Of a stretch of 64,000 nucleotides of DNA, positions 256 through 63,456 are shown piece after piece (the stretch's first letter is position 1; the number at the start of each line of letters is the position of its first letter). The DNA is from Bolinopsis microptera. Taxonomy: Eukaryota > Ctenophora > Tentaculata > Lobata > Bolinopsidae. A program made the position numbers and the translations under genes. The notes under the pieces were generated by a model, which had not been told where the DNA came from, made no database searches, and saw only the letters and a program-made list of their open reading frames with translations. Where the stretch lies: positions 8,119,460 to 8,183,459 of the forward strand of contig NC_087083.1 of the NCBI RefSeq assembly GCF_026151205.1, read 5' to 3'.

Positions 256-3200
256 TTATAAGCGACAACGAGAAAATTTCATTTGTGGCAACTTGCCTGA
301 ACTAAGTGGTGGTGCCCCATACTTTGATAACTCAGTAATTATTCGCTGTTGCCAGTTGTTTATTAGTTCTAGTGCTGCTTTTGAGAATTCTTGGTCACCT
401 TTTTCGGATTGTCGCCTCTGTAGTTTGGTTTGGAGTTACGTTGAGATTTTTATATTTGGTAATTAATTGTAAAATAATGCAAATTTATACTAATTTTACA
501 GCTGTAAATAATGCATCTATCATTTTGTTAAAATACACCATAAACTATAATATACGTGCAATGGTGGCCTGGCTTGCTCTTCACAATAGGTAGGTGCTCT
601 TTCTAAAAAGAATCTTAAAACTATCTCTCAGGGGAATCCCTGCTATATTTTAATACTTACAAATTAATTCTTTAATTCAATAATTAATTAATTACAATTA
701 ATAATTGTGACACATTTACTAACGTGAAAACGCCGCTTGAACTTATGTTGTCGATTGAGATTCGTTATTCTTTTCTCCAACAAATTTTTGATAAAACCAT
801 TCACATACTCTTTGCTGAGTCTATTTTCTGTATTTTTAAACTCCTCACTGTCCTGAAGGTTTTAATATTACCTTATATGGTAGTGTCCCTATGGTAACTA
901 TATATTACCTTATATGGTAGCTAAATTTCACCGAGACTAATTTGGATGCATTTATACCTCGTAGAAAGTTAATATACTGACATCCAATTTATACTTATTA
1001 TAGTGGGAAAAAATGGGGTTCAAAATTTGATTTAGAAAAATAACTGAGGTAGAAAAAGAAATCCATATAAATAAGAAACATTTTATACGAAACAGTTTTT
1101 TTAATTCACCCTATCAAAAGAGATGTAAAATGATTTGAGGTGTAAAATATCCTGATTAAAAAATAACCATGTATTTGAAATGTAAAATATCCTGATTAAA
1201 AACTAACCATGTATTTGAGATTTAAAATATCCTGAATTAAAAACTAACCATGTATTTAAGGTTACCTGGTTACCTGGTTACCTGGTTACCTGGTTACCTG
1301 GTTACCTGGTTACCTGGTTACCTGGTTACCTGGTTACCTGGTTACCTGGTTACCTGGTTACCTGGTTACCTGGTTACCTGGTTACCTGGTTACCTGGTTA
1401 CCTGGTTACCTGGTTACCTGGTTACCTGGTTACCTGGTTACCTGGTTACCTGGTTACCTGGTTACCTGGTTACCTGGTTACCTGGTTACCTGGTTACCTG
1501 GTTACCTGGTTACCTGGTTACCTGGTTACCTGGTTACCTGGTTACCTGGTTACCTGGTTACCTGGTTACCTGGTTACCTGGTTACCTGGTTACCTGGTTA
1601 CCTGGTTACCTGGTTACCTGGTTACCTGGTTACCTGGTTACCTGGTTAAAAACTAACCATGTATTTGTCAACAATCTTTAGCTTCTTCTCGTTAATATCT
1701 TCCTCCTTTACATTTTCCCACTCATTTGTATTCTTATATTCACATACTACATGCTCAGTTTTCTCCGCTTTTATACTATCAATCTGCAAATAAATTATAA
1801 TATATCTGTACATGACAGTAACACCCTGATTTACAATTTGTAGTTTGTGTGCAGGGGTTTGTGTCGGCAAATGACCTCACAGGAAGTTCGGTGACCATCT
1901 AGCGCACCGTTTCCACACCAAACAATTTTTATTTGAGAATACCTATTTCTGTAATCGTGCATTTCCTGGTTAAAGTGCATTTTTCAGAAAAGCACAATAT
2001 GTTTTGTTTTGAAGGCTATAAGTCAATCATTTCTTGTGATATCGAACTGAAATGTTACACGAAGTTTATTCATATCTTATTCAAGATGTGTGTAAAATTT
2101 TGATATATCTGAACAGGCTGCGTTTTTATAAAATTTGTTAAGTCAAAAAGTGGTAATTTTACTTTTCAGGCTTGTTTTGACCAAGTTCGTCAAGAAACAT
2201 CGGATTGTTTTGACAGTTGACATGAAATTGTTCACTGAATTTTGCCGCAGTTTTTGATGCCCTAAAAATGTGTTTATTCAACTGGAAAGTTGATCTTTTG
2301 GACATCAAAGCCAAACAACAAATTTAGGCATATTTTTCGGTTTCATATTTACAGATTTTTCTAACATTTCGATAGGAATGTGCTAAAGACTTTCGAAAGA
2401 GTGCAAAATTACCGAAACTAGCACATTTATATATGAGTTATGAATAATCAAACACCCTAAAATGCTTCCTTTTAAAGTTATGGTAGAAAATGTGATTTTT
2501 GTATCTGCAAACCCAAGCATGAATTTCGCCGCGGTTACACCACGCAAGATCAAATTTCCCTACAATGTAATTGTTGTATTGCATCCCAGAGTGCTAGTGG
2601 TGTTTGGCGCACGTTATAATCGTTTTTATCATATTAGCTGGCCAAGCTTGGTACAATCAGTGAATCCACTTTGAAGTGTCCAATTCCACAATCCTACATC
2701 AAGCGTCAAATCGACAACAAAGTCAACAGACTGAATCAGGAAACTTGGTTAACTGACGGTCCCAGACACACCAAACTGACACTCGGCCACAAGCACGCCA
2801 AAATCATCAAAAACCTCAACACTACACTCAGCAACAATAGACAAGATTACAGAACTGCAGTTCACCTCATCACGGGTCACTGCGGCTTAAACAAACACCT
2901 TCACACCATTTGCAAATCAAACACCAGTGCTTGTCCTATGTGCGGCGACGGAGAGGAAACTGTCTCACACTTCCTTGGACAGTGTCCGGCTATTGCCCAA
3001 ATTAGAGGTCAATATTTCCAGGACTACTACCTCTCTGTCAATGACATATTCGACAACCAACACATCACCACGATTGTCAATTTCGCAAACCGCACCAAAC
3101 GCTTAATTGTGCCGGAAGAGCTGGATCAGACCGGGGTGACTTAAAGTATTATCTCAAATGCTGTCTCGTCTCGTTTTACTTTTCCAAACCCACTGGGTTT

Positions 3201-5006
3201 GGAAAAGTAAAACGGTTTAACCCAGCTGGCATTTAAGCGTATCATTTTGACTCATATCACTTCTTACAGTTACACCATCCTCCACCATTCACTCTGATTT
3301 CACCGGCAACTTTCCCCAGGGTTGCCACACCCCAGAGGTAGGCAGAGCATCTCAATGCTATCCTCTCGTGGGCTATCTTGGCCCAGCCTCTCTTTTTTTT
3401 AAAAAGAAAAAAAAAAGGCGTGAACAAATTTAAAACTTTGACGCGTCACGTCGATTTGGGGTTTGGTTGTAGAACACTTCATATTTTTCGTGGTTTTGTT
3501 TTGTGTTAACAATGCGTACATCATGTCACGTCATATAATTATTGTTTCGCACGCAAACTTTATTGACTGTTATATAATATTCCGTCTCATCTTAGTTATT
3601 ATTTGAATCTAACATTAACTAATAAATTTTGATGCTAGATGGTCACTAAACTTCCTATGAAGCCATGAGGTCATTCGGGCTGGAAATTTTTGGTGTATGC
3701 CCACCAACTAAAGGTGCTGTGAAGTATTACTGTAATTAATTGATAAATTTCAGAATTGATGAAGATGTAGACCATCGAAAATATTTTTGTGTGATTAACT
3801 GCTTGTTTCATTTGTTGAGCTCGCTAGTGGAGGAAAAACAGAATTTTCACCTACCATTAGGTATCAACATTATAACTGTAGTACTATCTCAACTGACGTA
3901 TACCGACTCAAGGTTCCGTGAAAGTTGGGGAAATGTTAGCGTGATCTATAATTTACATAGTTACAATGCATTTTTCATGATTCGAACTGTACCACCGGAC
4001 ATAACCGGACTTAGTCGGACTGAACCGGACTTAGCCGGACTGAGCCGGACTTAGCCGGACTGAGCAAGACTTAGCCGGACTGAGCAAGACTTAGCCGGAC
4101 TGAGCAAGACTTAGCCGGACTGAGCCAGACTTAGCCGGACTGAGCCAGACTTAGCCGGACTGAGCCGGACTTAGCCGGACTGAGCCAGACTGAGCCGGAC
4201 TGAGTCAGACTTAGCCGGACTGAGCCAGACTTAGCCGGACTGAGCCAGACTTAGCCGGACTGAGCCAGACTTAGCCGGACTGAGCTGGACTTAGCCGGAC
4301 TGAGCCAGACTGAGCCGGACTGAGTCAGACTTAGCCGGACTGAGCCAGACTGAGCAAGACTTAGCCGGACTTAGCCGGACTGAGCCGGACTTAGCCGGAC
4401 TGAGTCAGACTTAGCCGGACTGAGCCGGACTTAGCCGGACTGAGTCAGACTTAGCCGGACTGAGCCAGACTGAGCAAGACTTAGCCGGACTGAGCCGGAC
4501 TTAGCCGGATTTAACTGAATTCAGCTGGACTTAACTGAATTCAGCTGGACTTAGCCAGACTTAGCCGAAATAAGCTAGAAGTTAATGACACAATAACAAT
4601 GGTTGAAAAAAGTAAAAAATCACCTTGTAACCCTTTTCTATACACTCCAACACTTCATCATTGGAGCTTTGACAGCTTTTCCAGGCTTTAGTTTTCTTCA
4701 CAGACTGGGGTAAAGAGCTCAGTACGCCGTGACAGGTCGGATCCTCCTGAATTAAACGGATTAAACGATTCAAAAGTTAAATTACAATGGTAATGGCTGA
4801 CCCAATATAAAAAGTAAATTTACCCAAAAGTATATACAAGAAAGAAAATTGGAAACACCATAATATAATAAACAAAAAATACTTCCCACAAATTTGTTGA
4901 ATGAGGTAAATAAAAAATAACTCTTCTAAAAGTGTACCTGGATATCCCCTGCTAGCACCACCTGATGGCTCCAGGATAAGAGCAACAAAACAGACACGGT
5001 CAGCAT
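256..5006 (-). CDS. Unrecognised secreted protein, five exons
   Basis: Minus-strand exons, 5' to 3': 4938-5006, 4624-4746, 1658-1783, 724-852, 256-417. Lengths 69, 123, 126, 129 and 162 nt are all multiples of three, so every intron is phase 0, and the joined frame encodes about 202 aa ending in TAA. Exon 1 reads as a classic signal peptide (MLTVSVLLLLSWSHQVVLA, then GDIQ). Exon 2 has four cysteines (PTCHG, KSCQS, LECIE region), exon 3 one (VVCEY). Exons 4-5 are lysine/arginine rich, include a helical stretch (LELINNWQQRIITEL), and end near SRCRL. Acceptors are CAG-type; donors are GTACAC, GTGATT, GTTAGT and GTTAGT. I do not recognise the family. Intron 2 contains a LINE fragment and a 0.55 kb minisatellite; the exon 3 donor is tandemly duplicated. 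Splicing is inferred from sequence only. Confidence 0.68.
1117..1257. repeat. 42-bp tandem copies of the exon 3 donor region
   Basis: Three imperfect units of about 42 bp each end in AACCATGTATTT. On the minus strand this is AAATACATG followed by GTTAGT, the exact end of exon 3 (1658) plus its donor. One unit carries GTTATT instead. The copies lie in the intron downstream of the functional donor, on the far side of the 8-bp microsatellite. Confidence 0.75.
1258..1648. repeat. (CCTGGTTA)n 8-bp tandem array, about 49 copies
   Basis: A nearly perfect array of the octamer CCTGGTTA. It sits inside one unit of the flanking 42-bp repeat, where the ordinary unit reads CCTGATTA, so the octamer probably arose by expansion within that unit. 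It begins about 9 nt into the intron from the exon 3 donor at 1658. Open frames through it are artefacts of the repeat. Confidence 0.95.
2510..2665. repeat. Dispersed repeat, copy A (left part)
   Basis: The stretch with GCCGCGGTTACACCACGC followed by ATCAAATTTCCCTACAATGT recurs at about 51208-51300. A second shared block, including GTCACGTCGAT and GGTTTGGTTGTAGA, occurs at about 3435-3520 here and at 51435-51515 there. The LINE fragment at 2667-3417 therefore seems to interrupt this copy. The family is not identified. Confidence 0.6.
2667..3417 (+). mobile_element. 5'-truncated non-LTR retrotransposon (LINE) fragment
   Basis: The plus-strand frame 2674-3144 encodes about 156 aa resembling the C-terminal end of a LINE ORF2. 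It has an RNase H-like tail segment (RTAVHLITGHCGLNKHL) and a CPMCGDGEETVSHFLGQC zinc-knuckle-like block of C-x2-C...H-x4-C type, which closes the ORF2 of many jockey/I/RTE-related elements. The 3' UTR holds a perfect hairpin at 3172-3214, and the copy ends in an A-rich tail with TTTTTTTTAAAAAGAAAAAA at 3390-3416. No reverse transcriptase remains, so the copy is 5' truncated and dead. It lies in intron 2 of the secreted-protein gene, antisense to it. Confidence 0.75.
3172..3214 (+). other. Perfect 21-bp hairpin in LINE 3' UTR
   Basis: A left arm of 21 bp starting CGTTTTACTTTTCC is followed by one base and its exact reverse complement. It sits just after the LINE stop codon, where some non-LTR elements carry a 3' stem-loop recognised by their reverse transcriptase. 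Confidence 0.8.
4001..4570. repeat. (CCGGACTKAG)n 10/20-bp minisatellite
   Basis: About 57 copies of a 10-bp monomer, CCGGACTTAG or CCGGACTGAG, largely alternating to make a 20-bp higher-order unit. Variants include AAGACTTAG and CCAGACTGAG. It ends about 55 bp from exon 2 of the minus-strand secreted-protein gene. Confidence 0.95.
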
Positions 5007-7019
5007 TTCAAATGGCGGGGGATGGGTCACTTTACATAGGTAACATAAGTAACATGGGTCACTTTACAAGCATTAACATGTTTGTTGCTGCTATAATTGA
5101 TTTTCTATCGGCTTGTTCTGAGAACGTTGAGATTCCTATTTGACAAATTAAGTCGTGAGGTATTGTTCCGCCATTTTGAAAATTAATGTTGATCTGACCA
5201 TTATAGCTTTATAGGTAGCACATACTGTTAAATCGATTTCATTGATCATGCAACTATTTTTAGTGTGCTAGCCGGGCTTTAAATCTGCAGAAGAATGTAA
5301 AAAAGATGAGAATAAATCTTAGGTTTTTAATTTTGGTCATCATAAAAATATATTTTGTTTGTTAATTTATGAAAATTGTAAATTTGAATTTTAAAAGAAT
5401 TTACTTTCATAAAATATTTTTACATTCAAAATAAAAAACGTATTAAAAAAATCGTTAAATGAATACAAAGTGTTACAAAAAATTTTATAAAAAACTTTAT
5501 GCTAACACGGCTCAAGCGGTACAAGCGGCTCGTCACAGTTTCATCAGGTTCCACTCTTAACATCAATCAAACCATATTAGGCTCCCACGTTTCACACTTC
5601 TCATTGGTCAGTACGATTCCCGCCATTTTCACTCCACACTAGATACATACCTACACACTTCACGTCATGCACCTGTTCACCGTTGTAGAACTCCATGCTT
5701 CTGTATCATGTGTAGTTTATTCAGTAGTAGTTTTAGGAATGTACAGTATTTACTACAAATGTTTGTCGTCGTATAAACTAATTTTGTTATGAATTTTGTT
5801 ATGACTTTTTTGTATCGAATTTTTGGATAAATTTGATTGATTAAAAATAAATAAATTTACACAAATTTTGCCTCAGATATATGTTTTTTACGTTTTGCAT
5901 TTTTAACACTTGTTTTTAGATCATGAATACGATGTAGTTACATTGAAACGTCGAGTAAACTCCTTTCCCTAATAAGAGCATTTTTACTTGTCGCAACAAC
6001 CGGGATAAAGATAATTTTACACGGAATACATATTATGTCTAACTTCTATGTTAATCCTACGATACATTATATATATTGCTTTGGAAAGTTGTACAGCACG
6101 GTTTTGTTATAATATATAAACATTTCCCTAGAGTTATCATATAGGTAAAAATTATTCCGTTAACTGTAAAGCAGAAAGTAAACGATTTCACAAAAGCTTT
6201 GAGAGAGAAAGAAAAAGCTGTATAAAAATGGAAAATGTACGTCCTAATAATAAGGACGTACTGCCTACCTGCCTAGGTCGGTCCAGATGAAATCTGGAAC
6301 GAGTTTCGTGTCAGCGCATGTCTCCATTTATCTCTATCACTCATGAGCAGACGTATCATGTTAAGTTGTCTAGCTCGATGAAATATAGATAAGCGGGTGC
6401 GTGGCAAAAAACTTTGCGAGTACCAAGGTATTGCTAGAGCCCACTAGCATCAGAAATTAGGTGTTTCATCCACATCTCTAGAAGTATTGTACCTGTGTAA
6501 TCAATTACTACTGGCTGATATTTGAGCTGAAAGTTAATTCTGGTCCTATCTGTACAACATGTTAACATTTTATCATGTGATATGATCCTGTATCTAGCCC
6601 GTTAGAACTCATAAATAAAAACTACTTAATTCTTTTACCTGCAAATATAGAAAATATTCCTCAAATGGCATAATCGCAGCTTAGTCACACTGTTATTTAT
6701 TAACGCATATCGGAGAGATGTGTACAATAATACGAACAGTATATTGTGCAGTTTAGACTAATGTAGGTTTAGGTGGAACAGGTGGGGTAGTGGCCGGGGG
6801 GGGGGGGGGGAGAGGGGGTATCTCTTTTGTTTAGACTCGCTATCTGTCGGACAGTACTATTAAACTACGTCAGTTGATCTGACGATATTGGTTTTTCTGT
6901 AGAGATGGGTGTATTTTTAGATAGCCTCTTTGAAGGCGAAGTCTTAAAGATGGAACAATCAAACACATTATATTATTAAAATGATGTGCTCAATATTACA
7001 ATTCAAAGTCACGTGTTCA
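5007..7019. other. Intergenic, no gene seen
   Basis: AT-rich spacer between the secreted-protein gene and the GPCR, which are in the same orientation. It should contain the promoter of the former and the 3' UTR of the latter; TTTATT at 6697 would be an AATAAA signal on the minus strand. Also present are a short hairpin (ACGTCCT..AGGACGT near 6240-6262) and a 14-G tract near 6797. Confidence 0.5.
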
Positions 7020-8072: not shown

Positions 8073-9251
8073 TCCTCCTTATCTAATTATAATGATTTGT
8101 TCAAATTAGGCAATTTTAGACAAGATTTACTACAACAGCTTGAGAAAGAGTAACGAGCACTAAAAACAAATAATTGATATTCCGTGGATATGAAAATATC
8201 ACCATGTTCGTGTCCCTCGACGTGACGATAAAAATGATGCGAAGGACAAAGGACGAAGGTGCTAGCAGCAGCTGCAGCCGATGCTATTAAATACGGAGTG
8301 CTCAAGGCAATCGTACAAATACGAAAAAAAACATTTCTTGCCGATGGAGGATTAACTTGGGGCCATATGTCCGTGGGGTCCCTAAATTTCGGTAAAATTA
8401 ATATAGATAATACACTTTTATAGAAAATTGCCATAAATGTTTGCGCAGATGGTTCCATAAATCAGTAAAACTATCGCACTATCTATTAAAATTGAAGACA
8501 ACAACTCTCACTTGATAGTTGATGGGTAATTTGGATTCTGAACAAATAATCGATATAGCTCTGTAGTCGATGCATTACGGAAAATTTGAAAATGTTGAGT
8601 ATCGGCAGAAGACAACAACTATAACAAGGTCAGGTGATCAGGTGATCAGGTGATCAGGTGATCAGGTGATCAGGTGATCAGGTGATCAGGTGATCAGGTG
8701 ATCAGGTGATCAGGTGATCAGGTGATCAGGTGATCAGGTGATCAGGTGATCAGGTGATCAGGTGATCAGGTGATCAGGTGATCAGGTGATCAGGTGATCA
8801 GGTGATCAGGTGATCAGGTGATCAGGTGATCAGGTGATCAGGTGATCAGGTGATCAGGTTTTCTTCTGCTGCTGCTCAGCCTCCCCCGATTATGTCATGT
8901 TGGTAATCGCACTATATACTTATATAGTTCTAAAACTTCTAAAATTATTATACATCTGAATGTAGGTGAAAAACTTATAAATTTCCATTATCCATCTCAA
9001 ACACCATGAGTAGTGTGTGATAGACTGATAGAGTCTTTAATCCTATAGCACCATGAGTCGTTCGTAATGGAGTTTTTAACCCTATAGCTGAACGGTACGT
9101 ATCGCATCTCGTAATCCATTACGTGCCGTCTACAGCTGCAGTACGTGCCATCTAACTATAATGATGACTGTATCACGTACTCAGAAAGTGCCGTATAGGT
9201 TAAACAAAGACTCCATCTCATAATCAATTACGTGCCGTATATCTGGAGTCT
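8073..9251. other. Intergenic between GPCR and TRPM2-like gene
   Basis: No convincing gene. It should hold the GPCR 5' region and the TRPM2-like 3' UTR (an ATTAAA on the minus strand near 9034-9039 is a possible poly(A) signal). It also has an octamer array at 8633-8858 and, at 9000-9240, loosely repeated TACGTGCCGTCTA / CCATGAGT words. Confidence 0.5.
8633..8858. repeat. (AGGTGATC)n 8-bp tandem array, about 28 copies
   Basis: A perfect octamer array that embeds the palindrome TGATCA once per unit. Read on the plus strand each unit also resembles a splice donor (CAG then GTGATC). No exon was found next to it. Confidence 0.95.
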
Positions 9252-42252
<33,001 letters not shown>

Positions 42253-44856: not shown

Positions 44857-45638
44857 GATCAGCTTGGGTGGGCGACAATTGACCCCCCGACAATTGACCC
44901 CCCGACAATTGACCCCCCGACAATTGACCCCCCCGACAATGTAATTTAATACAATTGACCCTGACCCTGACCCTGACCCTGACCCTGACCCTGACCCTGA
45001 CCCTGACCCTGACCCTGACCCTGACCCTGACCCTGACCCTGACCCTGACCCTGACCCTGACCCTGACCCTGACCCTGACCCTGACCCTGACCCTGACCCT
45101 GACCCTGACCCTGACCCTGACCCTGACCCTGACCCTGACCCTGACCCTGACCCTGACCCTAACCCTAACCCTAACCCTAACCCTAACCATAACCCTAGCC
45201 CTAACCCTAACTCTAACCCTAACCCTAACCCTGACCCTGACCCTAACCCTGACCCTGACCCAGGACTCTGACCGTAACCCTAACCCTAACCCTGACCCTG
45301 ACCCTGACCCTGACCCTGACCCTGACCCTGACCCTGACCCTGACCCTGACCCTGACCCTAACTCTAACCATAACCCTAACCCTAACCCTTACCCTGACCC
45401 AGGACCCTAACCCTAACCCTGACCCAGGATCCTGACCCTAACTCGATCAATTGACCCCAGTGTAATTACATGGGGGGTCAATTGTCGGGGGGTCAATTGT
45501 CGTACTTAACCCTAGATTTCGCGACAATTGACCCCAGTGTAATTACATAGGGGTCAATTGTCGGGAGGTCAATTGTCGGGGGGTCAATTGTCGGGGGTCA
45601 ATTGTCGGGGGGTCAATTGTCGCGGTACCGATCAGCTT
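44857..45638. mobile_element. Inverted-repeat element with telomere-like core, 9-bp target duplication
   Basis: The element 44866-45629 (764 bp) is flanked by GATCAGCTT at 44857-44865 and 45630-45638. The paralogous copy at about 47030 lacks it. Its ends are inverted: GGGTGGGCGACAATTGACC on the left and, read from the right, GGTACCGCGACAATTGACC. Several further copies of CGACAATTGACCCCCC follow on the left and of the reverse complement on the right. The core, 44958-45440, is CCCTGA hexamers with blocks of CCCTAA (telomere type). An 8-9 bp duplication with GG-starting ends recalls Merlin or MULE elements, but no transposase is present, so the class is a guess. Confidence 0.8.
44958..45440. repeat. 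(CCCTGA)n / (CCCTAA)n interstitial telomere-like array
   Basis: About 30 uninterrupted CCCTGA hexamers are followed by mixed CCCTAA, CCCTGA and a few CCAGGA variants. CCCTAA is the complement of the canonical metazoan telomere repeat TTAGGG; the one-base variant CCCTGA dominates here. Open frames through it (TLTLTL, DPDPDP) are artefacts. Confidence 0.95.
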
Positions 45639-48535: not shown

Positions 48536-51500
48536 ATGAGCAGCCCAATGTTTTGGAACATGATGACGATAATTGCTGGACTTAGCATGCTGCTGATGAT
48601 TTCAGGTGAGTTTCAGAACCTTAAATAAGTTGGATTATAGATGGTTTGACTAAATTAGTATTAGTAAACTGTGAGTCACAAATCAAAACTCCGATTTAAC
48701 GTACCATATACCCAAATAATGGTATATATATATATATAGACTACCTATAAGTATAGTAAATATAATATACATTTTATATACCAGATACCGCATTGTACTA
48801 ACAAATTTCTTCTCAGATGCTGAAATCCAGTGTATACAGGGAGCTAACAGCACTGCTCCTTTCGTTAATTGTCCTGTCGGTACTGTCTCCTGTTATAGGT
48901 ACGTTATCAATTAGTTCAATTAGTTCAATAAGTTCAATTAGTTCAATTAGTTCAATTAGTTCAATTAGTTCAATTAGTTCAATTAGTTCAATTAGTTCAA
49001 TTAGTTACTTGAAAGCTTCCAATCGTATCTTCTTTTCGTGGTTATCCCTGATAAAAAGGCAGCGAACTAAAAAGAGCATGGAAGGGTCTTAGAACTCGGC
49101 AAAATTTCTTTATTCGCGATTTTATCTTCCACAGCTGCTCACCACAAATTGTGAAGGGCCTGAACGGAACCCCTCGGTTTCAGTTCCTTGTTTAAAACTG
49201 TCGTACAGCAAGGACATTCACCGCGGTCGCCAAAATATAGTGAGATAGTAGTGTTGAAAGTATTATGATCCAACTATCAGTATTTCATCATGAGACTAAT
49301 AAACTAAAACAGCGAACTACTCCAACATTTGATATTTATATGCGCAATAGTGACATTAATATGCGGGTACAGGGTATTGTTTTGAACGGTCTTAGAAGGG
49401 AAATAGTTGTATATACCATGGGTTATAATTATAATAGTACTACAACATTATTTGGCTGCCGTGCTTTTATACGTTTTTTTGTTCCAATCTGGAACGATTA
49501 ACAACTAAGTTATCACTTAACTTAACTAAGTTATTATTTAGCTTAACTAAGTTATAACTTAACTTAACTAAGTTATTACTTAACTTGACTTTATTATTAT
49601 AACAAATCTCATGATAAGCTAAAATAAATAATTAAAAATTGCGTTGGTTTTTAAAATAACCATGAAACTAAACCCACTGTCAGGCCCAAGCTAACAGAGC
49701 ATGTAGGGTTTGCCAGCGGAGTGGATTACGGATGTGGGCCGTGTGACCCGGAACTCTCGTTTGAGTGTGCGGAATGCAGCGTGTCCGGGTGTAACCAGCC
49801 ACCAGGTTAACTTTTCTACTGTATTTTTCATACGCCATTACCACATGTTGTTCGATTTACTTTGTACTTGTTAATGAGTGTTTTCTGATGTTCCAGGTGA
49901 GCGACCACGTGCTATTACTTATTATAAATACCTTACTTCACCTGTAGTGCTGGAGGAGAGTTACTCGTGCTACAACTACAAAGTAGCAGGAGGTGCTATC
50001 ACCAGACACCCAACTCTCACCACCTGTTGGAGATCTAAAGGCTCAGCTATCACCTGCAACATGTAAGTTTAGGTTATCTGAAACACTAATTGGTCACTAA
50101 TTGGTCACTACTTGGTCACTAATTGGTCATTAATTGGTCACCACCTGTTGGAGATCTGAAGGTACAGCTATCACCTGCAACATGTAAGTTTAGGTTATCT
50201 GAAACACTAATTGGTCACTAATTGGTCACTAATTGGTCACTAATTGGTCACTAATTGGTCACCACCTGTTGGAGATCTGAAGTTACAGCTATCACCTGCA
50301 ACATGTAAGTTTAGGTTATCTGAAACACTAATTGGTTACTAATTGGTCACTACTTGGTCACTAATTGGTCACTAATTAGTCACCACCTGTTGAAGATCTG
50401 AAGGTACAGCTATCACCTGCAACATGTAAGTTTAGGTTATCTGGAACACTAATTGGTCACTAATTGGTCTGACTATGATGCTCTAAAAGTGATACGCTAT
50501 CTTTTCATTTGCACAGATCACCATATCATATGCATATGTTGGCCGTGATCAAAACAGTTTGTATTTTCTGCTTGATAAATTTGTCCAAACGTGACCTAGC
50601 AATCGTAACTTGATGACAAATTTTAAACAAAATGTCATTTATAGTTTATACGTGATGTTTTAAAAACTTATCATCGTGCAATTTTACTTTAAACATTTTT
50701 ATGAATGCAGGCAAATAATTATTACTTTAATATTATAAAGAAAGCCTATTCCGAACATATTCTGAGAATTGAGAACCATTGCTTTGTAGGCGCTGTAAAG
50801 TCTATACTCATCTGAATATAAATTTAGTCACAAATCATAATGTTACGTTAATCTTTAGAATTATAATGTATAATTTTTATAATGCTTAATGTTACACTTT
50901 CTCTGATAAAGAATTAAGGAAGCTGAGTAGAAGCATATGAGAAATGGTAGATTTGAGTTTATTGGTCACTAATTGGCCACTTATTAGTCACTAATTGTCC
51001 ACTAATTGGTCACTAATTAGTCACTATAACACTGTTCTATTCAGGCCGGCCAGTACAGCAGATTACAAAAGTGTTAGTGGTTGTGGACCATGCGGGGAGA
51101 CAGCAAAAGAACGGGGGACATGTGTAGAATGTTATTCAGACTCTTGCAATCAGATCGGTGAGAAATCAATCAATTTGCATAACTTAATTAAGATTGAATT
51201 TAACAAGAATTTCGCCGCGGTTACACCACTTGGTCATTTCGTGTTAAATTCCTGTTAAATTCCACCACGCACGATCAAATTTCCCTACAATGTAATCGTT
51301 TTACTTAAATTGTAATCAACCGTAAGCATTTGAACCCCCCCCCCCCCCCCCCCCCTCGGCTGATTACGTAATATGTGAACGACCCCATATTAGGCGTACA
51401 AAACTTGAAAATACTGCACGCATCTGCAACGTGTCACCGTCACGTCGATCTGTGGTTTGGTTGTAGACCATGCACTTCATATTTTGCGCGGTTTTGTTTC

Positions 51501-51783
51501 GTGTTAACAATTGGAATACGCTATATTAATATAGTGCTCCAACCATGCTTTACTCTCACTTTAAAATCCTGTCGAAATTGACCGCAATTGACTGTGACCA
51601 CGGTGAATGAGCCGTAATGTAGCACGCCGCTGGGTCAGTCAGTTCATTATAGATTAATAAATGGATTATAAATGTGTTTCAACTTAATTATTTTCAGTAA
51701 GAGAGAGTGATCGTGCCCATCTCCACCACCGAACAAGAAGATCAGTCTCCGCTGAATGTGTCTCCCAGTGTCCTTACAGCTAA
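48536..51783 (+). CDS. Secreted protein with two three-finger (Ly6/uPAR-like) domains
   Basis: Exons: 48536-48605, 48817-48898, 49684-49805, 49897-50062, 51045-51157, 51698-51783. All phases match and the product is about 212 aa. Exon 1 is a signal peptide (MFWNMMTIIAGLSMLLMIS). Domain 1 (exons 2-3) has IQCIQG, VNCPVGTVSCYR, YGCGPC, CAECSVSGCN. Domain 2 (exons 4-5) has YSCYNYK, TTCWR, ITCNM, SGCGPC and CVECYSDSCN. Both close with the C-N pair typical of three-finger folds, and each domain is split over two exons at the same place. Exon 6 adds a basic, furin-like RTRRS and two cysteines (AECVSQCPYS), then stop; there is no GPI signal. Three-finger proteins act as receptor modulators, adhesion factors or toxins, and the sequence does not decide which. 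Likely poly(A) signal AATAAA at 52315. Confidence 0.88.
48909..49008. repeat. (CAATTAGTT)n 9-bp tandem repeat
   Basis: About eleven copies start roughly 11 nt after the exon 2 donor of the three-finger gene. The donor itself is not copied. Confidence 0.92.
49495..49600. repeat. AACTTAACTAAGTTAT imperfect palindromic repeats
   Basis: Four to five copies of AACTTAACTAAGTTAT/ATTACTT in intron 2 of the three-finger gene. Each unit is nearly self-complementary. Confidence 0.75.
50010..50480. repeat. 121-bp tandem array of exon 4 end, donor and ATTGGTCACTA words
   Basis: CACCACCTGTTGGAGATCT through CAACATGTAAGTTTAGG, the last about 50 nt of exon 4 plus its donor, occurs four times at 121-bp spacing (CAACATG at 50057, 50178, 50299, 50420). 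Copies are separated by runs of the 12-mer CTAATTGGTCAC. Only the first copy is continuous with the exon body. Confidence 0.95.
51208..51515. repeat. Dispersed repeat, copy B, with poly-C tract
   Basis: Copy of the repeat near 2510-3520 (GCCGCGGTTACACCAC, ATCAAATTTCCCTACAATGT, GTCACGTCGAT, GGTTTGGTTGTAGA). In it, a run of about 20 C at 51338-51356 is followed by TCGGCTGATTACGTAATATG and TGAACGACCCCATAT, a block that recurs at 60478-60513 after another poly-C tract. Confidence 0.75.
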
Positions 51784-52549
51784 TTGGTCACTAATTGGTC
51801 ACTAAGTTTCCCTACAGTTAAAGTTACGTTCCTCTTCTACATATCTAAACTATTAGTTGTGCGACTTTTCCATGTTATCTGCTATGCAGCTTATACTGAG
51901 CGACCAAATTCAGAAAATGTCTTAATAATGAAAAACCAATACAAAGCTAAGAAAATAAGCATTCGCACATCGTGATAATGATTAATATTATATTTATATC
52001 TCGAGTCATAAATGCTTAAATAGTAAACTGGTTACTGGAAGCTCTCAATCCGTTCCTCTTTTTGTGCTCATCTCTCCTTACGTGCTCATGCTCGAGGCCG
52101 GTTGCTGATCACTCGACACTCAAGCAACATATATTTTGTTATATTAATGCTATTCATGCAAACAAGTAAAACGAATCTGTTATGTCATGTATCCTATATG
52201 ATTTTACATTTTAATTTTTTCTACAGAACAAACAGCATTCATAAATATTTTTAACTAATAACGGGGGATGACGGGGATGCAGGCCTCAGTTTGTGTTTGT
52301 TGTTTTGATCTACAAATAAAGAAGAGTGTATAATGAAGTTCAATTAATTAAATTCTTTTGAATAAATAAAGGTAACCATTATGTGTCGAGATTATTATTT
52401 TTCTCTTATAGTTTATTCCATCTGATGTCTGATTGTACCACCATGTCTGTCGTATAATATAGTTTTTAGACGTTAGTGTTACGAATAAGCAGTTTAAAGG
52501 AAATTGAGAATTTTTTTGTTGGAGAATTCTAAATTATTAAAGTTTTATC

Positions 52550-54811: not shown

Positions 54812-57800
54812 ATGAGCAGCCAATCTCTGGTCTGCCCCAACAGTGATGATGATCAGGCTGACTGTAAGGTAGGACAACATTTCAACAATGTTCCTTATTT
54901 TAAACCATAGCACAATAACAACAAGATGTGTCAAAATCTTCAAAAACAGAAACGATCTATAAAACTGGTTAATTTTTAGGTTGTTTTGGTTGTGATGTTT
55001 GCTATGTCTATATTAGTATATTAATTGTATCATTATTAATTACATTGCTAATTATGTCTATATTGTTGAGTATTTATATTACAAGCTGGATTCGTCTGCA
55101 ATCGTCTATAAACCATGAAAAATAAATCTTGAATTGAAAATAATTCAACAATCAGGTTGTAACAGAACAAGTACCTTTGACGCAGGTTATCCTGCCTAAA
55201 GCAAAGTCTGAGGTTAATACTTATTTCAACTATTTATTATAGTATATTATATATAGTATATTATATATTATTGAAGATACTTATTTTACTTCGGCTTATA
55301 TTGTAACCAGGAGGCGAAGATGGATCCTGGTTACACCCTGGTTACACCCTGTTTACGACCTGGTCACAACCTGGTTACAACCTGGTTACAACCCTGGTTA
55401 CACCCTGTTTACACCCTGGTTACACCCTGGTTACACCCTGGTTACACCCTGGTTACACCCTGGTTACACCCTGGTTACACCCTGGTTACACCCTGGTTAC
55501 ACCCTGGTTACACCCTGGTTACACCCTGGTTACACCCTGGTTACACCCTGGTTACACCCTGGTTACACCCTGGTTACACCCTGGTTACACCCTGGTTACA
55601 CCCTGGTTACACCCTGGTTACACCCTGGTTACACCCTGGTTACACCCTGGTTACACCCTGGTTACACCCTGGTTACACCCTGGTTACACCCTGGTTACAC
55701 CCTGGCCCTGGTTACACCCTGGTTACACCCTGGTTACACCCTGGTTACACCCTGGTTACACCCTAGTTACACCCTGTTTACACCATGGTTACACCATGGT
55801 TACACCCTGGTTACACCCTGGTTACACCCTGGTTACACCCTGGTGACACCCTGGTTACACCATGGTTACACCCTGTTTACACCCTGGTTACACCCTGGTT
55901 ACACCCTGGTTACACCCTGGTTACACCCTGGTTACACCCTGGTTACACCCTGGTTACACCCTGGTTACACCCTGGTTACACCCTGGTTACACCCTGGTTA
56001 CACCTTGGTTACACCCTGGCCCTGGTTACACCCTGGTTACACCCTGGTTACACCCTGGTTACACCCTGGTTACACCCTAGTTACACCCTGTTTACACCAT
56101 GGTTACACCCTGTTTACACCCTGGTTACACCCTGGTTACACCCTGGTTACACCCTGGTTACACCCTGGTTACACCCTGGTTACACCCTGGTTACACCCTG
56201 GTTACACCCTGGTTACACCCTGGTTACACCCTGGTTACACCCTGGTTACACCCTGGTTACACCCTGGTTACACCCTGGTTACACCCTGGTTACACCCTGG
56301 TTACACCCTGGTTACACCCTGGTTACACCCTGGTTACACCCTGGTTACACCCTGGTTACACCCTGGTTAAACCCTAGGGAACTGGTACGGTTTAGGAAGC
56401 ATAGTATTACAGGGTAGGCCAAAAGTATGTAACGTTACTTTTGGCCCACCCTGTATATATTTACATTACTTTGTCAAAGAGTCCAAGGCTTTGCTGCACC
56501 AATAAATTCGTAGTGTTGTTTTTCGTTTAAATCATTTTTAGTTATTCCGTTTGTTGCTACAAGGAAACATGCTATTTATATATTATCAGGAAGAGGAAAT
56601 AGATAAGTTATAAAAACACACTTTTACAATTTACAGGGTAATATAGGCTTGGCAGGTCCAATTAAACGCTTAGCTAACGAACAAAATGGAAACAAGACAT
56701 CTTTCCGGCACTCTGGCTATCAATTCTTTGATAATTTCAGTGAGTTTACCTTTATTTTGTTCTAAGATGTAATGCATAACTTTATCAACCAATAAAAATA
56801 CCCTGCACTATTATAACAGCCAACAATAACGATATCATCAAGATAAACCCATTTTAATTGAAAAGCAATCTATTACCTAAATAAAATACTCTAAGACATG
56901 ACCTTTTACTGTAGGTGACTCCGAGAACGAATCTACTGTTCTGTCAGACATCCAGGAACCAGTTATAACAGAAGATCAAGAAGTGGAGCCTGAAAATACT
57001 GTGAGTTTATGAAATAGAACTATAACAAATGTTCATTTTAAAGATCATCTATGAAGTTTTATGATTATTTGCAATTCCTGTGGCAGGGATGATATTGACT
57101 TACGTTAAAATATATTTTGCCAGTAAATGTGCGCTTTCGAGGGTTAATGAATGAATGAAATTGAACGCTTTAACCCATATAATACCAACAACTCTAAACG
57201 TTCGAATTTTTTGATGAAATTTTGTTTCCTAAGCACTAAGACACCAACTCCGACGATGCAATAATTATTTTGAAAAAATTTATATTTTTTATAGCTTTTT
57301 CGACCCGTACTTTTAAAAGTTCATTGTTGGAGCTTACTTTTTTGAAACATTGCATCGTACTTTTAAAAGTACATCATATTTGAATGATGTACTTTAAAAA
57401 GTACGGGTTTAATGAATAATGTACTTTTAAAAGTACGGGTTTAATGAATAGTGTACTTCTGGAGGTACGTTACTTAATTAAACAGAAACTCAGGGTCAGA
57501 TAATAAAACTAAAAGCCCTTGTCAGAATGGCTGAATAAAATTTAAACAATACATACAAAATTTAAGTGGTACACTAAACAAATCGTGATGGTGGGAACAG
57601 CTATACTTATAAACTACTATCATAATTCCATTTACCAATTTACTAGAATTTTACGAAAATTTTCAGGTTTCGTGCTTTTTACTCTAACTGATTATAAGTC
57701 TAAGGATAAACAAAGCACACAAAGTGCAACGTCACACACTTCACACTTAGCCAAACGCTTTTCACAACTTAAAGAATACCGAAAATGGTGAGAATGAGAA

Positions 57801-60800
57801 GAGAGTAGCAGAGGCTGAGACAATTCTAGAGGAATAGAAGAAAGTAGCAGAAGCTGAGCGTGTTCTAGAGGAGCAAAGGAGAGTAGCAGAAGCTGAAAGA
57901 GTTCTAGAGGAACAGAAGAGAGTAGCAGAAGCTGAGAGAGTTCTAGAGGAGCAGAAGAGACTAGCAGAAGCTGAGATAGTTCTAGTGGAAAAGAAGAGAG
58001 TAGCAGAGGTGGAGACAATTCTAGAGGAACAGAAGAGAGTAGCAGAAGCTGAGCGTATTCTAGAGGAACAGAAGAGAGTAGCAGAAGCTGAGAGAGTTCT
58101 AGAGGAACAGAAGAGAGTAGCAGAAGCTGAGATAGTTCTAGTTGAAAAGAAGAGAGTAGCAGAGGTGGAGAGAATTCTAGAGAAACAGACGAGAGTAGCA
58201 GAAGCTGAGAGAGTTCTAGAGGAACAGAAGAGAGTAGCAGAAGCTGAGCGTATTCTAGAGGAACAGAAGAGAGTAGCAAAGGTGGAGAGAATTCTAGAGA
58301 AACAGACGAGACTAGCAGAAGCTGAGGGAGTTCTAGAGGAACAGAAGAGACTAGAGAGTAGCAGAAGCTGAGCGTATTTTAGAGGAGCATAAGAGAGTAG
58401 CAGAAGCTGAGAGAGTTCTAGAGGAACAGAAGAGAGTAGCAGAGGTAGAGAGAATTCTAGAGAAACAGAGGAGAGTAGCAGAAGCTGAGAGAGTTATAGA
58501 GGAACAGAAGAGAGTAGCAGAGGTGGAGAGAATTCTAGAGAAACAGACGAGAGTAGCAGAAGCTGAGAGAGTTCTAGAGGAACAGAAGAGAGTAGCAGAA
58601 GCTGAGCGTATTTTAGAGGAACAGAAGAGAGTAGCAAAGGTGGAGAGAATTCTAGAGAAACAGACGAGAGTAGCAGAAGCTGAGAGAGTTCTAGAGGAGC
58701 AGAAGAGAATAGCAGAAGCTGAGCGTATTCTAGAGGAACAGAAGAGAGTAGCAGAAGCTGAGCGTATTCTAGAGGAACAGATGAGAGTAGCAGAAGCTGA
58801 GAGAGTTCTAGAGGAACAGAAGAGAGTAGCAGAGGTAGAGAGAATTCTAGAGAAACAGAGGAGAGTAGCAGACGCTGAGAGAGTTATAGAGGAACAGAAG
58901 AGAGTAGCAGAGGTGGAGAGAATTCTAGAGAAACAGACGAGAGTAGCAGAGGTGGAGAGAGTTCTAGAGGAACAGAACAACTCAGCTGAGGAAATGCATA
59001 GACTACAAGGAAAGGAATCTTATGTTGGAACAGCAGATTGCTGATGGCACACAATCATGTCAGTATTTAATAGTTAACATACATTGGAGTTCGGAAACCA
59101 GTTACAAGATCTAGGATTGTGAACATTAAGCGGGGGGGGGGGGGGGTTATCAGGTACCAAGTTGAGAAATCACGGTACTGACTGTGTTTTGGTATATAAA
59201 ATAAGATACCCTCCCATAAATTGCTTTAAACAGCTCATTAAACATTGGGAAATGGACAAAGTATACCCACTATTTAATAGGGGTTTTGTTTCCAATGCAG
59301 TCGAATTAAATAAAAAGTTACAAAAAAAGGAAACAAAATTTTTAAAAAACCCAAAAAAAAGGAAAAAAAAGTCAAAACCCAAAAAAACCCATTCCCAAAA
59401 TTGAAATTTGAGGTAAAATGGATTTTTGGGGTTGGACACCCCCTTAGTACCTTGTACTAACTGATTTTCTGGGAAATGAGCAGCAGACCCACCACTTATT
59501 ACAAAAGTACTAACAGTAACTGTGTTTTGGAAGAAAATATGACCCACCCCCCGCATTAAGTAAGAGTATATTGAAGGCCGCTCTGCAAGACGCGGAATAA
59601 CCGGGAGAAAACGTGGATCCTTCAAGATCGACTAAATCCCAGAAGTCACAACAGAAAGTTTCTGTTGTGACTTCCGTACTGATTCAGAACAATTTACCTG
59701 CCATTACAGTCTTACCGACGTTAATCATGCCAGCACACATTGTGTAGTCTATATAAATTATAAACCTGTACTTTTAAAAGTACATTTTTCGTGAAACCTG
59801 TCCTTTTAAAAGTACAATATTTGAAGATAATGCACTTTTAAAAGTACGTACTTTTAAAAGTACATCATTGTCTAGAATGATGTACTTTTAAAAGTACACC
59901 CAATTAACATCTCAATTAGAGGCAATTTATGATTTTTATGTCGCCCCACATTATTGCCTATTTATTGCACAATCGTTTAGGCAATATTAAAAAACCAAAT
60001 TTGGGATCTATCAAAGTTGGAGAATTGGCTGGTGGTACCGAGGATTTACCATTTTTCAAAGTACCATTTTTGACCACCTTTGCCAACATCCTATAAATTT
60101 CTTGCTTTTTTTACCCATCTGGCCAGGGTGTTAAAATCATCAACAGACCTTTTCTAACCTAATGCAAAAAACTGTATTAAAAAATATTTGTCACGAGACA
60201 AGTTAGGTCACTGTTTATGAACCGTACTTTTAAAAGTACCGTGGAAGAATATGGGTTAAACAACATTTTCTTCTACTTGGATCAGTAAGTCCAACTCTTC
60301 ATACATTTCAGCAAGCCATCAGTGTGTTCTACTCTATTTTAATCCTTGTGGTAAATGTAGGGTTCATCTTAGCCGCTACTTTTGTCTTCATGATCGTCGA
60401 AAACAGGGTAAGATCTTAAACTTAAAGAATCAACAAAATTAAAAAATACAATAGCCCCCCCCCCCCCCCCCCCCCCCTCGGCTGATTACGTAATATGTGA
60501 ACGACCCCATATACAATAAGCGTACTCATCCACTAACCACTTGGTAATATAAAACTCAAAACTGAAAATATTGCACTTGCTAATAGGGGGAGACGAAAAG
60601 GAACGCTGAGGCGTACGAAACACTTCAACACTTTGAAGGACATATAGACAATGCAACCAACATCCTTGCAGGTTTGTATTTATACATGCGTGTGTATGTG
60701 TTCGAGTGTGTGTGGGCATTGAATCGATTTGCTTGAATCTCAAAAATGGTGAGCTAAATGCCAGTTTTACAGGTTCTAATCCGAGGTATAAGAGCTATAA

Positions 60801-63456
60801 GTATAACTTTAGGTAGTGAGTTATGTAAAATTTAAGGGTACAACTGGATTTGGAGGAGTAATTATAGGGCCTACGAAATATTTTCCGCCGGTATTTTGTC
60901 GAGCTGAACATCCTGTACCCTTTGAACAACCCCGATTTCAGTTTGAGAAATTACCACGTTACAGTATATAAACCTATTTATTAAACATATTTATAGTATA
61001 ATAGTAGTTACTTATTGACCAGAGTTGCTGACACTGCAACAGCAGATGTGCAGAAAGAATAACGACAGAGTGGGTAATGATTGGGTTTTCTGGGGATCAT
61101 TCCAGTTCTGTAACACCGTCATAACAACTCTTGGTGGGCAACTGTAGTTATTGTTTCAGTTAAGCGTCTTACTTCAATATCTGTCATTTTTAGGCAAAGT
61201 TTAGATTTCGGAGTTATAAATTCTAAAATTTTAACTTTTTTATCTTCCTTATGATATAATTATATGTATATTGTCCTCAAATATATCGTCCTTCTTATAT
61301 TATGATAGTACTCACACCATTTTGGTTAAAAACGCTTATATCCTAATTCATAATTCCTATATATGTATACAATGTATACAATGTATACAATGTATCAGTA
61401 TACAATATATGCGAGTAAAAATCGCCCCTTCGTTTAGGATACGGTCTAGTGTACCCCCACACAGCAATAGCAAAGTACATCACCATGGTGTACGGTCTAT
61501 TTGGAATACCCATATATCTCTGCTACATCGCCTACTTTACGGATTATGTGCTGCTAGGGTTGGATGCTATCAGGTGCTGCATACAGCGCTGGACACAGTA
61601 AGTGTGTTTATTATGTGCTGCTAGGGTTGGATGCTATCAGGTGCTGCATACAGCGCTCGACACAGTAAGTGTGTTTATTATGTGCTGCTAGGGTTGGATG
61701 CTATCAGGTGCTGCATACAGCGCTGGACACAGTAAGTGTGTTTATTATGTGCTGCTAGGGTTGGATGCTATCAGGTGCTGCATACAGCGCTGGACACAGT
61801 AAGTGTGTTTATTATGTGCTGCTAGGGTTGGATGCTATCAGGTGCTGCATATAGCGCTGGACACAGTAAGTGTGTTTATTATGTGCTGCTAGGGTTGGAT
61901 GCTATCAGGTGCTGCATACAGCGCTGGACACAGTAAGTGTGTTTATTATGTGCTGCTAGGGTTGGATGCTATCAGGTGCTGCATACAGCGCTGGACACAG
62001 TAAGTGTGTTTTAAGGGACGATTTCACGCCTCTTAAACGCCCCTTAAAAACGTTTAATACTTTTAAGTTAAAACAAAGACATTCTAAAATATATCTCTAC
62101 TTATTGTTTTACATTCTACAAGTACAACATGTACCCTATTTTACATTCTAAAACATGTGCCCTATTTTTATGTTCACGTGATTAGTATTAGTAAGCTTTT
62201 ATTTTGTAAATTAGATATAATTAGTTAGGTAGACAAATATATGTATATTTATATAGAAGAGCAGTTCCAACATCAGTTATTTCATATTTTCAATTTGTAT
62301 TCTTGGTATGAGCGCGGTATAAATACACTGCTTCTTTTTTATTTTAACTATTCTAAGTCACCAAGTAGCATTAAATACGTTTTCTTGCAGCTGGAATTGG
62401 ATGGTAAAATCTCAAATCCGAATAGCTCTCATGCGATCTCTGTTCGCCACAATTTGTCTTTTTATTTACATCGGTGAGAAAACTTACTTAAAATGATTCC
62501 CAACACCCGATTTTATTGATGGAAGTTATGATTTGATACAATAACAATAATTCAATTACATTGATTACAATGATTACAATGATGACAACGACTACAATGA
62601 TTACAATGACTACAATGACTACAGTGTATCGTTTACAGCGGTACACTTGTGGGTAGTATACCCTTCCGAGAGGGACTGGGAGGAGCCCCACATGAAGAGA
62701 TCACTAATGCAAATGTTCTATTGGCAGGTAAGCAAGTAAATAAAGTCAAATTTTATTAATATTATGTACAGTATATATTATTACGTATATACAGAGACTG
62801 TTGGACGTTGGTAGTATAACACCCTACCAACGAGATACAGATATTATATATATATTATTACTATTACTATAAAATATATTACTATTTTACCATTTTGTTA
62901 TTCCTGGCCTCATACCGTATAAGCTTTTTGGATCATGGTGTTAATCGTAGTGACAACCGACGTTATTAATTTCTGACAGAATTTCACTCAATTTCCTCAG
63001 ACGATAAGGTTTACGACTATTGGTTTCGGTGATATTGTGGTGCTGTTGGGACATGAGATCCCCAAGCTGATGTCCTCTACTTTACTGGGGCTTCCACTTG
63101 GGATTTGCTGCATGAACGTTTACTTTTCAGCCATCAGGTTGTTTTTTAATAAAACAATTATTTTTTAATTGAATCTATCGAATTTTTTAATTGAATCGGT
63201 CCTTCCGAGTACGTAGATGTTTTTGAGAACATGTATCAATTAACAACTTTAGTTAAAAGAGATGCCTGACTCATCACATAGTATGTTTAAATATTATACA
63301 AATTTATCGATTAATTCTAATTTAATAATTAGTTACATAGTATGTAGTTTATAATAAGCTGGATTTTATCCCAGGAGTATGTCTGGCACAAAGATGTTCC
63401 AAAACTCTACTGTTTACGAAAAGTTTAGGTCATGTTGCGGCAGAAAACAACAGTGA
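54812..63456 (+). CDS. Two-pore-domain (K2P) potassium channel
   Basis: Exons: 54812-54868, 55156-55212, optional exon from 55311, 56637-56739, 56915-57000, 60312-60407, 60587-60671, 61023-61133, 61438-61597, 62391-62473, 62639-62727, 63001-63137, 63375-63456. All phases match; about 381 aa without the optional exon. An acidic N-terminus (about 100 aa) precedes M1 (FYSILILVVNVGFILAATFV). The extracellular cap is followed by pore 1 (NTVITTLGYG, about 192-201), M2 (YGLFGIPIYLCYIAYF), M3 (LFATICLFIYIG), pore 2 (RFTTIGFGD, about 312-320), M4 (GLPLGICCMNVYF) and a very short C-tail. The paired GYG/GFG filters with two pore loops define K2P leak channels, which work as plasma-membrane dimers setting resting potential. 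Subfamily not assigned. Poly(A) signal AATAAA at 63687. Confidence 0.92.
55311..56370. repeat. Optional K2P exon running into an 11-bp donor array (GGTTACACCCT)n
   Basis: After acceptor TTGTAACCAG, a short segment from 55311 (EAKMDPGYTL) enters about 93 copies of the undecamer, each offering CCTG/GTTACA as a weak donor. Neighbouring exons require a phase 0 exit, which every third unit from the second onward provides. No unit contains a stop in any of the three frames, so alternative donors would add multiples of 11 residues. The exon could also be skipped without a frameshift. A few units are altered (CCTGGCCCTGG, CCATGG, CCTGTTTAC). Confidence 0.75.
56408..56455. mobile_element. 44-bp hairpin flanked by TA, mariner-MITE-like
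   Basis: CAGGGTAGGCCAAAAGTA and its complement (one mismatch) face each other across eight bases and are flanked by TA on both sides. Such tiny hairpins with TA flanks resemble the residual ends of Tc1/mariner-type MITEs. Confidence 0.55.
57790..58985 (+). repeat. 39-bp tandem array encoding RVAEAERVLEEQK-like units
   Basis: About 30 copies of a 39-bp unit inside the long K2P intron. In one frame each reads as a 13-residue coiled-coil unit (for example RVAEAERILEEQK), but that frame is broken by TAG at about 57834 and by a 7-bp insertion near 58345. As 39 is a multiple of three, a long open frame is expected from the repeat alone. It may be a decayed coiled-coil exon or plain satellite. A possible splice-bounded segment (about 57668-57785) precedes it. 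Confidence 0.7.
59131..59147. repeat. Poly-G tract
   Basis: A run of about 16 G. Flanking DNA to 59560 contains two loosely similar blocks (GTACTGACTGTGTTTTGG and CAGTAACTGTGTTTTGG). No gene is seen. Confidence 0.7.
59642..59674. other. Perfect 16-bp hairpin
   Basis: GAAGTCACAACAGAAA, one base, then its exact complement. It is in the K2P intron near the palindrome cluster; origin unknown. Confidence 0.7.
60453..60513. repeat. Poly-C tract and dispersed block shared with 51338-51392
   Basis: About 24 C followed by TCGGCTGATTACGTAATATG and TGAACGACCCCATAT, identical to the block after the poly-C tract at 51338. It lies between two K2P exons. Confidence 0.85.
61543..62010. repeat. 67-bp array of K2P exon end and splice donor, seven copies
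   Basis: ATTATGTGCTGCTAGGGTTG through GGACACAGTAAGTGTG, the last about 55 nt of the exon 61438-61597 plus its donor, is repeated at 67-bp spacing (GGACACAGTAAG at 61591, then 61658, 61725 and on to 61993). Only single-base differences are seen (CGACACA, ATATAGC). Reading past the first donor gives CAG TAA, so downstream donors would truncate the channel. Confidence 0.96.

Follow-up and report, generated by a model that had tools for sequence, protein, structure and literature searches.

Tandem repeats spanning exon-intron junctions in several genes of the ctenophore Bolinopsis microptera: probably repeat growth tolerated by splicing

The DNA analysed here, called the window, is a stretch of 64,000 nucleotides of a chromosome-scale contig of the ctenophore Bolinopsis microptera (C12:8119460-8183459); genome-wide counts given below cover 264.65 Mb. 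It holds a TRPM2-like gene, a cysteine-rich gene (the 'three-finger' gene of the initial annotation), a K2P gene and a putative gene at 1-2 kb. The TRPM2-like gene was rebuilt on the minus strand as 38 exons, with exons 2-38 in an uninterrupted frame, and its exon numbers are about 1-2 lower than those used initially. A Bolinopsis microptera protein at NCBI (1224 residues) is 100% identical to residues 303-1526 of the 1526-residue model. An extra exon at 15294-15369 was discarded as spurious once the gene was rebuilt, and an open reading frame at 15086-15427 showed no relative in a PDB search or in a viral-contig scan. The exon positions of K2P were set by an NCBI Bolinopsis protein together with a Mnemiopsis protein. 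A hand-spliced draft of K2P, with one exon misframed, matched Pfam Ion_trans_2 (E 7e-19). The window copy differs from the NCBI Bolinopsis K2P protein by at least 3 substitutions, and this protein may derive from a duplicate copy of the gene. The exon structure of the cysteine-rich gene was read by eye from the DNA, as was that of the putative gene; the cysteine-rich product gave zero Pfam matches, and its sole PDB match is at chance level (E 0.098).

Repeat arrays are frequent in this region (8.3 per 10 kb in the window vs 4.6 in the comparison segments). Introns are rich in them, with 34 across the 36 TRPM introns and 38 across 79 dynein/myosin introns. A telomere-like hexamer array (GGGTCA/GGGTTA) lies at window 44873-45622 between inverted CGACAATTGACCCC arrays, and on C5 the same CGACAATTGACCCC flank motif borders an (ACCCTA)72 array located within a dynein intron. 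TRPM intron 13 contains an inverted repeat pair (22100-25790) with an 80-residue open reading frame in each arm (22150-22392, plus strand; 25485-25727, minus strand). Inside the K2P span and outside the K2P protein models, a 39-bp repeat is present 30 times with long open frames (RVAEAERVLEEQK-like; 57797-58977).

The initial annotation had described about 13 junctions at which the exon edge and its splice site are copied into the intron. Each junction signature (33 bases for donors, 37 for acceptors) was aligned to at most 300 bases of its own intron, other introns serving as the null. In the TRPM2-like gene, a score of at least 16 was reached by 6 of 36 donors (introns 18, 20, 22, 25, 27 and 35) and 2 of 36 acceptors (introns 21 and 26), for a null rate of 0.04% of 2797 alignments. 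All these structures are on the minus strand. At the intron 18 donor (20393-20516; exon end 20458), a 62-bp unit present 2.0 times takes in 57-59 exonic bases, and the protein is contiguous there in both P0041 and P0042. The intron 20 donor (19420-19660; exon end 19641) carries a 47-bp array of 3.1 copies (19500-19643) including 3 exonic bases; a diverged copy of this donor lies 213 bases further downstream. At the intron 22 donor (16755-17065; exon end 17034), an exon-edge copy of about 45 bp lies at +265, with (CT)108 at 16802-17018 sitting between the two donor copies. The intron 25 donor (15440-15590; exon end 15569) has a diverged copy at +103. The intron 27 donor (14206-14302; exon end 14283) carries 3 copies of a 32-bp unit made of 20 exonic and 12 intronic bases, and the intron 35 donor (10127-11619; exon end 11607) about 75 copies of a 20-bp unit that includes 13 exonic bases (CTGG|GTAAGT). 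On the acceptor side, the intron 21 acceptor (17140-17275; start of exon 22 at 17150) has a diverged copy of the acceptor and exon start 114 bases upstream. At the intron 26 acceptor (14451-14904; start of exon 27 at 14455), a 34-bp unit is repeated 13.4 times; it ends CAG|GTATG and shares just 5 exonic bases.

The NCBI Bolinopsis protein is contiguous across all 8 affected TRPM2-like junctions. At 6 of them, a Mnemiopsis protein (73% identity) is also contiguous to within 8 residues; alignment gaps lie near the other two. Intron 2 had also been counted among the affected donors. Its array (40556-40656, minus strand) does begin at the donor GT, but copies no exonic bases and is not junction-spanning.

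On the plus strand, the K2P donor reported at 61.6 kb was borne out by the NCBI K2P protein model, which is contiguous there and places the array at exon 8 (61543-62011; exon end 61597): a 67-bp unit of 55 exonic and 12 intronic bases occurs 7 times. The other proposed K2P donor, at 55.3 kb, did not stand, as the 11-bp array found there (55326-56375, plus strand) is internal to intron 2, about 110 bases beyond the donor, and contains no K2P exon. The exon 4 donor of the cysteine-rich gene (50017-50469, plus strand; exon end 50062, by eye) shows a 121-bp unit in 3.7 copies that is plain in the DNA, as had been claimed. This unit contains a nested 11-bp array. The 11-bp unit, CACTAATTGGT, is found over 50084-51805: inside the exon 4 donor unit, ahead of the next acceptor, and again in the intron that follows; arrays resembling it are present on other chromosomes. 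Finally, the claimed donor of a secreted-protein exon at 1.66 kb (1133-1670, minus strand; exon end 1658) is a probable one: the repeat, with 40-bp unit copies around 48 copies of AGGTAACC, is present, and the exon itself is putative.

In total, 8 donors whose exons are supported by a model or directly read, 1 probable donor and 2 acceptors are affected in the window. An exon-edge copy was thus retained for 10 of the junctions first listed (6 donors and 2 acceptors of the TRPM2-like gene, K2P exon 8 and the cysteine-rich gene), while 3 were negative or putative. The unit lengths, given initially as 8 to 265 bp, correspond to spacings of 20 to 265; the 8-bp AGGTAACC satellite is located between two 40-bp copies and is not a junction unit. 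The units differ between genes, and the AGGTAACC 8-mer beside one junction is the only dispersed sequence, in agreement with the earlier view that no single transposon is involved.

An inverted copy of part of the window is found at about C12:8.65-8.70 Mb, and is 93-99% identical to the window in the main aligned pieces. It covers C12:8653475-8696000 against window 26417-62100, and includes the TRPM N-terminal part, the cysteine-rich gene and K2P. This copy could be a true duplication or a misplaced second haplotype. An LTR-type retroelement in TRPM intron 9 (window 30070-38290), holding an open reading frame labelled gag-like by eye (35075-36172, plus strand), is absent from it. The two copies differ in array size. 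The K2P array spans 1773 bases in the duplicate vs 701 in the window, a difference of 16 extra 67-bp units; from alignment coordinates, about 23 units are present in the duplicate, 99% identical here, vs 7 in the window. In the cysteine-rich gene, the 44-bp segment that runs up to the exon 4 acceptor has about 18 copies in the duplicate (again from coordinates) and a single one in the window. An 11-bp intronic array is shorter in the duplicate, and the TRPM2-like intron 2 donor array is identical in both (L074). Array turnover is fast, and the earlier suggestion of an ongoing process agrees with these differences between near-identical copies.

Collapsed or expanded repeats are a common assembly error, and the two copies of the region, 0.5 Mb apart, might be haplotypes that were misplaced, so that the arrays might be artefacts. 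However, the single diverged copies in introns 20, 21 and 25 are not explicable as collapse, and the structures recur on other chromosomes, which makes an artefactual origin extremely improbable.

This recurrence was assayed in 35 merged segments (187,594 bases) obtained from a search for the myosin and dynein families and from five further 10-kb stretches. In a paired-intron set of 79 dynein/myosin introns, 0 of 158 junctions reached a score of 14, suggesting that the effect is confined to the window. This set was limited to introns with both exons aligned, and the suggestion was overturned by single-ended calling on 109 donors and 97 acceptors, which revealed one acceptor and three donors in dynein/myosin genes, two of these donors being clear and the third weak (score 14). 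At a score of at least 18, chance would give 0.11 donors and 0 acceptors. The clear dynein donors, near C8:10868328 and C6:2559687, correspond to a 49-bp unit in 2.1 copies and a 32-bp unit in 5.1 copies; the acceptor, a 51-bp unit in 2.0 copies, is at the dynein C8 locus.

A search for pairs of the consensus donor word AGGTAAGT led to an ADAM22-like exon (locus L076; PDB match E 4.5e-9, Pfam none) followed by a 44-bp donor array of 8.2 copies. It is one of 8 loci chosen out of 12 listed; the four passed over were a pair of copies of the same 32-bp satellite and two loci of low complexity. Two of the 8 were read as exon edges (L076, by its ADAM22 similarity, and L081, which is plausible); for the others, the sequence ended or showed no clear exon. 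The coding-score test applied to the flanks of these pattern-chosen loci is a weak one, passing 36% of 36 true exon ends. Altogether, boundary-spanning units were found at 10 window junctions, 3 dynein junctions and 1 ADAM22-like exon. Both sides of the intron are affected, acceptors being represented by TRPM introns 21 and 26 (the latter through its 5 exonic bases) and by the dynein C8 case.

The arrays could be at junctions by chance or by preference. We set each Tandem Repeats Finder array of the TRPM and dynein/myosin genes randomly over its intron and edge, and scored a hit when at least 3 exonic bases were included. This model is blind to copies that are diverged or set apart by a spacer, as in TRPM introns 21, 22 and 25, in the observed and expected counts alike. 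For TRPM, 4 donors were hit vs 2.03 expected and 1 acceptor vs 2.16 (36 junctions each); for dynein/myosin, the numbers were 2 vs 1.62 (110 donors) and 1 vs 1.39 (98 acceptors). Combining both, 6 of 146 donors were hit vs 3.65 expected, and 2 of 134 acceptors vs 3.55. The total thus counted is near random (8 seen vs 7.2 expected), so a special junction mechanism is unneeded to explain it. Mid-intron positions score as duplicated no less often than junctions: 21 of 105 reached at least 16 in TRPM vs 8 of 72 junctions, and in the paired-intron set of dynein/myosin 18 of 240 did so vs 0 of 158 junctions. Random placement alone is nevertheless insufficient to explain the gap in donor rate between TRPM (6/36) and dynein/myosin (3/109; Fisher P 0.008).

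Within this near-random total, arrays lean toward donors, which is suggestive only given the small numbers. The donor dominance first given as 11 vs 2 keeps its direction and is weaker: the window holds 9 donor and 2 acceptor cases (P 0.065, two-sided). Including the dynein cases, the ratio is 12:3 (P 0.035); with the putative exon and the weak dynein donor removed, it is 10:3 (P 0.09). Such a lean would be expected if events that accompany transcription or splicing (e.g. R-loops, U1 binding or co-transcriptional nicks) started or grew arrays at 5' splice sites, in the sense orientation only. The junction-favouring mechanism of the initial annotation is of this type; it is unnecessary for the total, and has on its side the donor hits and an enrichment of donor words in tandem.

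This enrichment was measured with two consensus donor words, AGGTAAGT and AGGTGAGT, and four control words, a tandem pair being defined as a word repeated with a gap of 8-38. Genome-wide, AGGTAAGT gave 1515 pairs and AGGTGAGT 1507, vs 38 for TGAATGGA, 223 for TGAGTGGA, 240 for GATGAAGT and 531 for TGAAGTAG. Both donor words are thus above all four controls, by 2.8 to 40 times, in pair counts that are inflated by a few large satellites. Single occurrences, counted for two words, were 10,758 for AGGTAAGT vs 7,965 for TGAATGGA. AGGTAAGT exceeds its reversed word 40-fold, but this contrast was rejected as decisive, because tandem occurrences of the reversed word are unusually scarce (19 places); four control words were used for this reason. 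The reversed word has one large multi-copy array, which itself carries a donor on the opposite strand. Counting loci, AGGTAAGT has 11 pair loci on C1, two of them from one satellite family, and for AGGTGAGT the matches listed, which cover C1 up to 15.8 Mb, include at least 8, one array being common to both words. By comparison, GATGAAGT has 6 loci on C1 with one match each, and all 19 loci of TGAATGGA lie outside C1. An average word of AGGTAAGT composition, taken from the 35 segments and scaled to C1, would give 8.2 pair loci, of which 3.2 with at least 3 copies. The AGGTAAGT excess therefore rises with copy number, from 11 vs 8.2 for pairs to 7 vs 3.2 for at least 3 copies; 7 of the AGGTGAGT loci listed also have at least 3 copies.

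Donor motifs within genic arrays point in the same direction. Among 88 dynein/myosin arrays, a donor motif scoring at least 6 was found in the sense orientation in 10 vs 4.8 expected (p 0.025) and in antisense in 5 vs 3.4 (p 0.25); two of the ten sense arrays are the dynein junction cases themselves. In the TRPM span, 6 arrays had a sense motif vs 2.2 expected, and 0 an antisense motif vs 2.0. Without regard to strand, a motif at score 7 was present in 10 of 87 arrays vs 4.2 expected, and 3 of 150 draws were as high. A strong donor was also found in 3 of 8 arrays met via the control words vs 0.36 expected, with threshold and arrays chosen post hoc; at other thresholds, the numbers were 3 vs 0.79 (score 7), 2 vs 0.23 (8.5) and 1 vs 0.17 (9). 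These arrays were picked among the matches listed, excluding one repeat copy and C4:12255102 (two matches, 27-base unit, no strong donor), whose inclusion gives 3 of 9. From the word pairs, the sense-strand excess and the control-word arrays, a modest donor excess in arrays, roughly 1.5- to 5-fold, is possible.

The 12:3 ratio, the donor words and the sense motifs would all fit a donor-linked process. However, the placement total fits randomness, and a few large satellites dominate the word matches, two of the 11 C1 loci being one family. Moreover, just two donor and four control words were tested, the direct contrast between 10 sense and 5 antisense arrays in the dynein/myosin segments is not significant (P 0.30), and an acceptor-edge segment was likewise amplified about 18-fold in the duplicate gene. 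We therefore consider it unlikely that a donor-linked process starts the arrays or makes them grow. It is equally unlikely that sense-strand 5' splice-site arrays are born or expanded several-fold more often, with splicing or transcription at donors driving minisatellites.

The (CT)108 tract at 16802-17018 is bordered by the 45-bp duplicate containing the donor of intron 22. Likewise, arrays of AGGTAACC, an 8-bp unit forming near-perfect arrays at many genomic places, have direct duplicates, 12 to 59 bases long, on their flanks in the window (1260-1648) and at L002, L004 and L006. In some cases, a short-unit satellite might thus have inserted or grown at a break and left a direct duplication of its flanks that includes the junction. 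But strong flank duplicates (score at least 16) occur in just 4 of 47 arrays, a sample that includes loci chosen for containing AGGTAACC, and 2 of these 4 share flanks. Furthermore, no inserted satellite is seen at TRPM introns 18, 27 and 35 or in K2P, and growth at the seam of a pre-existing duplication would give the same picture. Satellite insertion at a break is consequently a very doubtful origin for these cases.

The arrays might also be functional, as spare donors, as regulated exon extensions or as intermediates of intron gain through AG|GT tandem duplication. Indeed, many copies retain the strength of the exon-proximal donor, and dual-specific AG|GT sites are reported to be enriched in human tandem-repeat genes (PMC10809524). 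Nevertheless, AG|GT is present at only 5 of 13 duplicated donors, and copy number varies widely between near-identical duplicates. The first spacing is divisible by three in 2 of the 13 donor cases, so alternative donor use would mostly shift the frame. A function for the arrays is for these reasons highly unlikely.

The reading that we favour, and hold to be likely, is that the arrays are mirages, the name given to such repeats in amphioxus: a founding tandem duplication chanced to straddle an exon-intron boundary, and tolerance by splicing then acted as a filter. Tandem duplications would arise often in the introns of this ctenophore. A duplication within an exon would be harmful and lost; one in an intron or across its edge would leave an intact exon and a working splice site, and would be tolerated, its surplus copies turning into intron sequence. 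Later, ordinary turnover (slippage, unequal exchange) would lengthen or shorten the array. We infer selection as the filter, an idea already present in the initial annotation, from three observations with which it agrees: in none of the 13 donor cases was a copy found that is stronger than the exon-proximal donor, the TRPM protein model runs on contiguously at 8 of 8 junctions, and the placement total is near random. From what is generally known of splice-site choice, a donor copy downstream should do less harm than an acceptor copy upstream. Donor-side events might thus outlast acceptor-side ones, as extra upstream acceptors (AG sites) probably disturb splicing more than downstream donors. 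Altogether, the arrays probably represent repeats that grow in the ordinary way and are filtered by what splicing tolerates, with a hint of donor favouring. Whether donors are hotspots of repeat birth or mere places of forgiveness is a question testable on one annotated genome.

Unlike an introner or transposon, the ctenophore arrays share no single sequence family across junctions, the units being gene-specific. In human UBC, dual-specific splice sites form tandem arrays (PMC10809524); the ctenophore arrays are likewise made of potentially usable splice sites, but the UBC sites bound coding ubiquitin monomers, whereas the ctenophore copies are intronic by protein models. In the Rogers model (cited in PMC3087553), introns are gained when AG|GT is duplicated in tandem; a potato RdRp case (PMC4974935) belongs here. 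There too the duplication takes in the splice signal. In contrast, the ctenophore copies are within existing introns, and 8 of the 13 duplicated donors are not AG|GT. Among ctenophores, tandem repeats are reported to make up 13% of the Hormiphora genome (PMC8527503), and no report of mirage-type repeats in this phylum stood among the papers listed by literature searches.

The closest likeness is with the mirages of amphioxus, minisatellite-like tandem repeats across exon-intron boundaries described in Adh3 and globin genes (PMC3087553) and in PGBD5, troponin C being mentioned as another example (PMC3902484). In these amphioxus repeats, unit length is varied, AG/GT signals are present in many of the copies though not in all, haplotypes differ in copy number, and regular splicing is reportedly undisturbed (PMC3087553; PMC3902484). 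The ctenophore arrays similarly span a donor or an acceptor, with varied units and copy-number differences. They differ from what is described there in that they belong to another phylum, reach about 75 units, were compared with random placement and are described from genome sequence and protein models. Thus, the junction-spanning arrays are real and of a kind known from amphioxus, in a phylum apparently new for it. They extend this little-known phenomenon to a ctenophore and to several gene families, and bring to it a random-placement test and array sizes that differ between near-identical copies.
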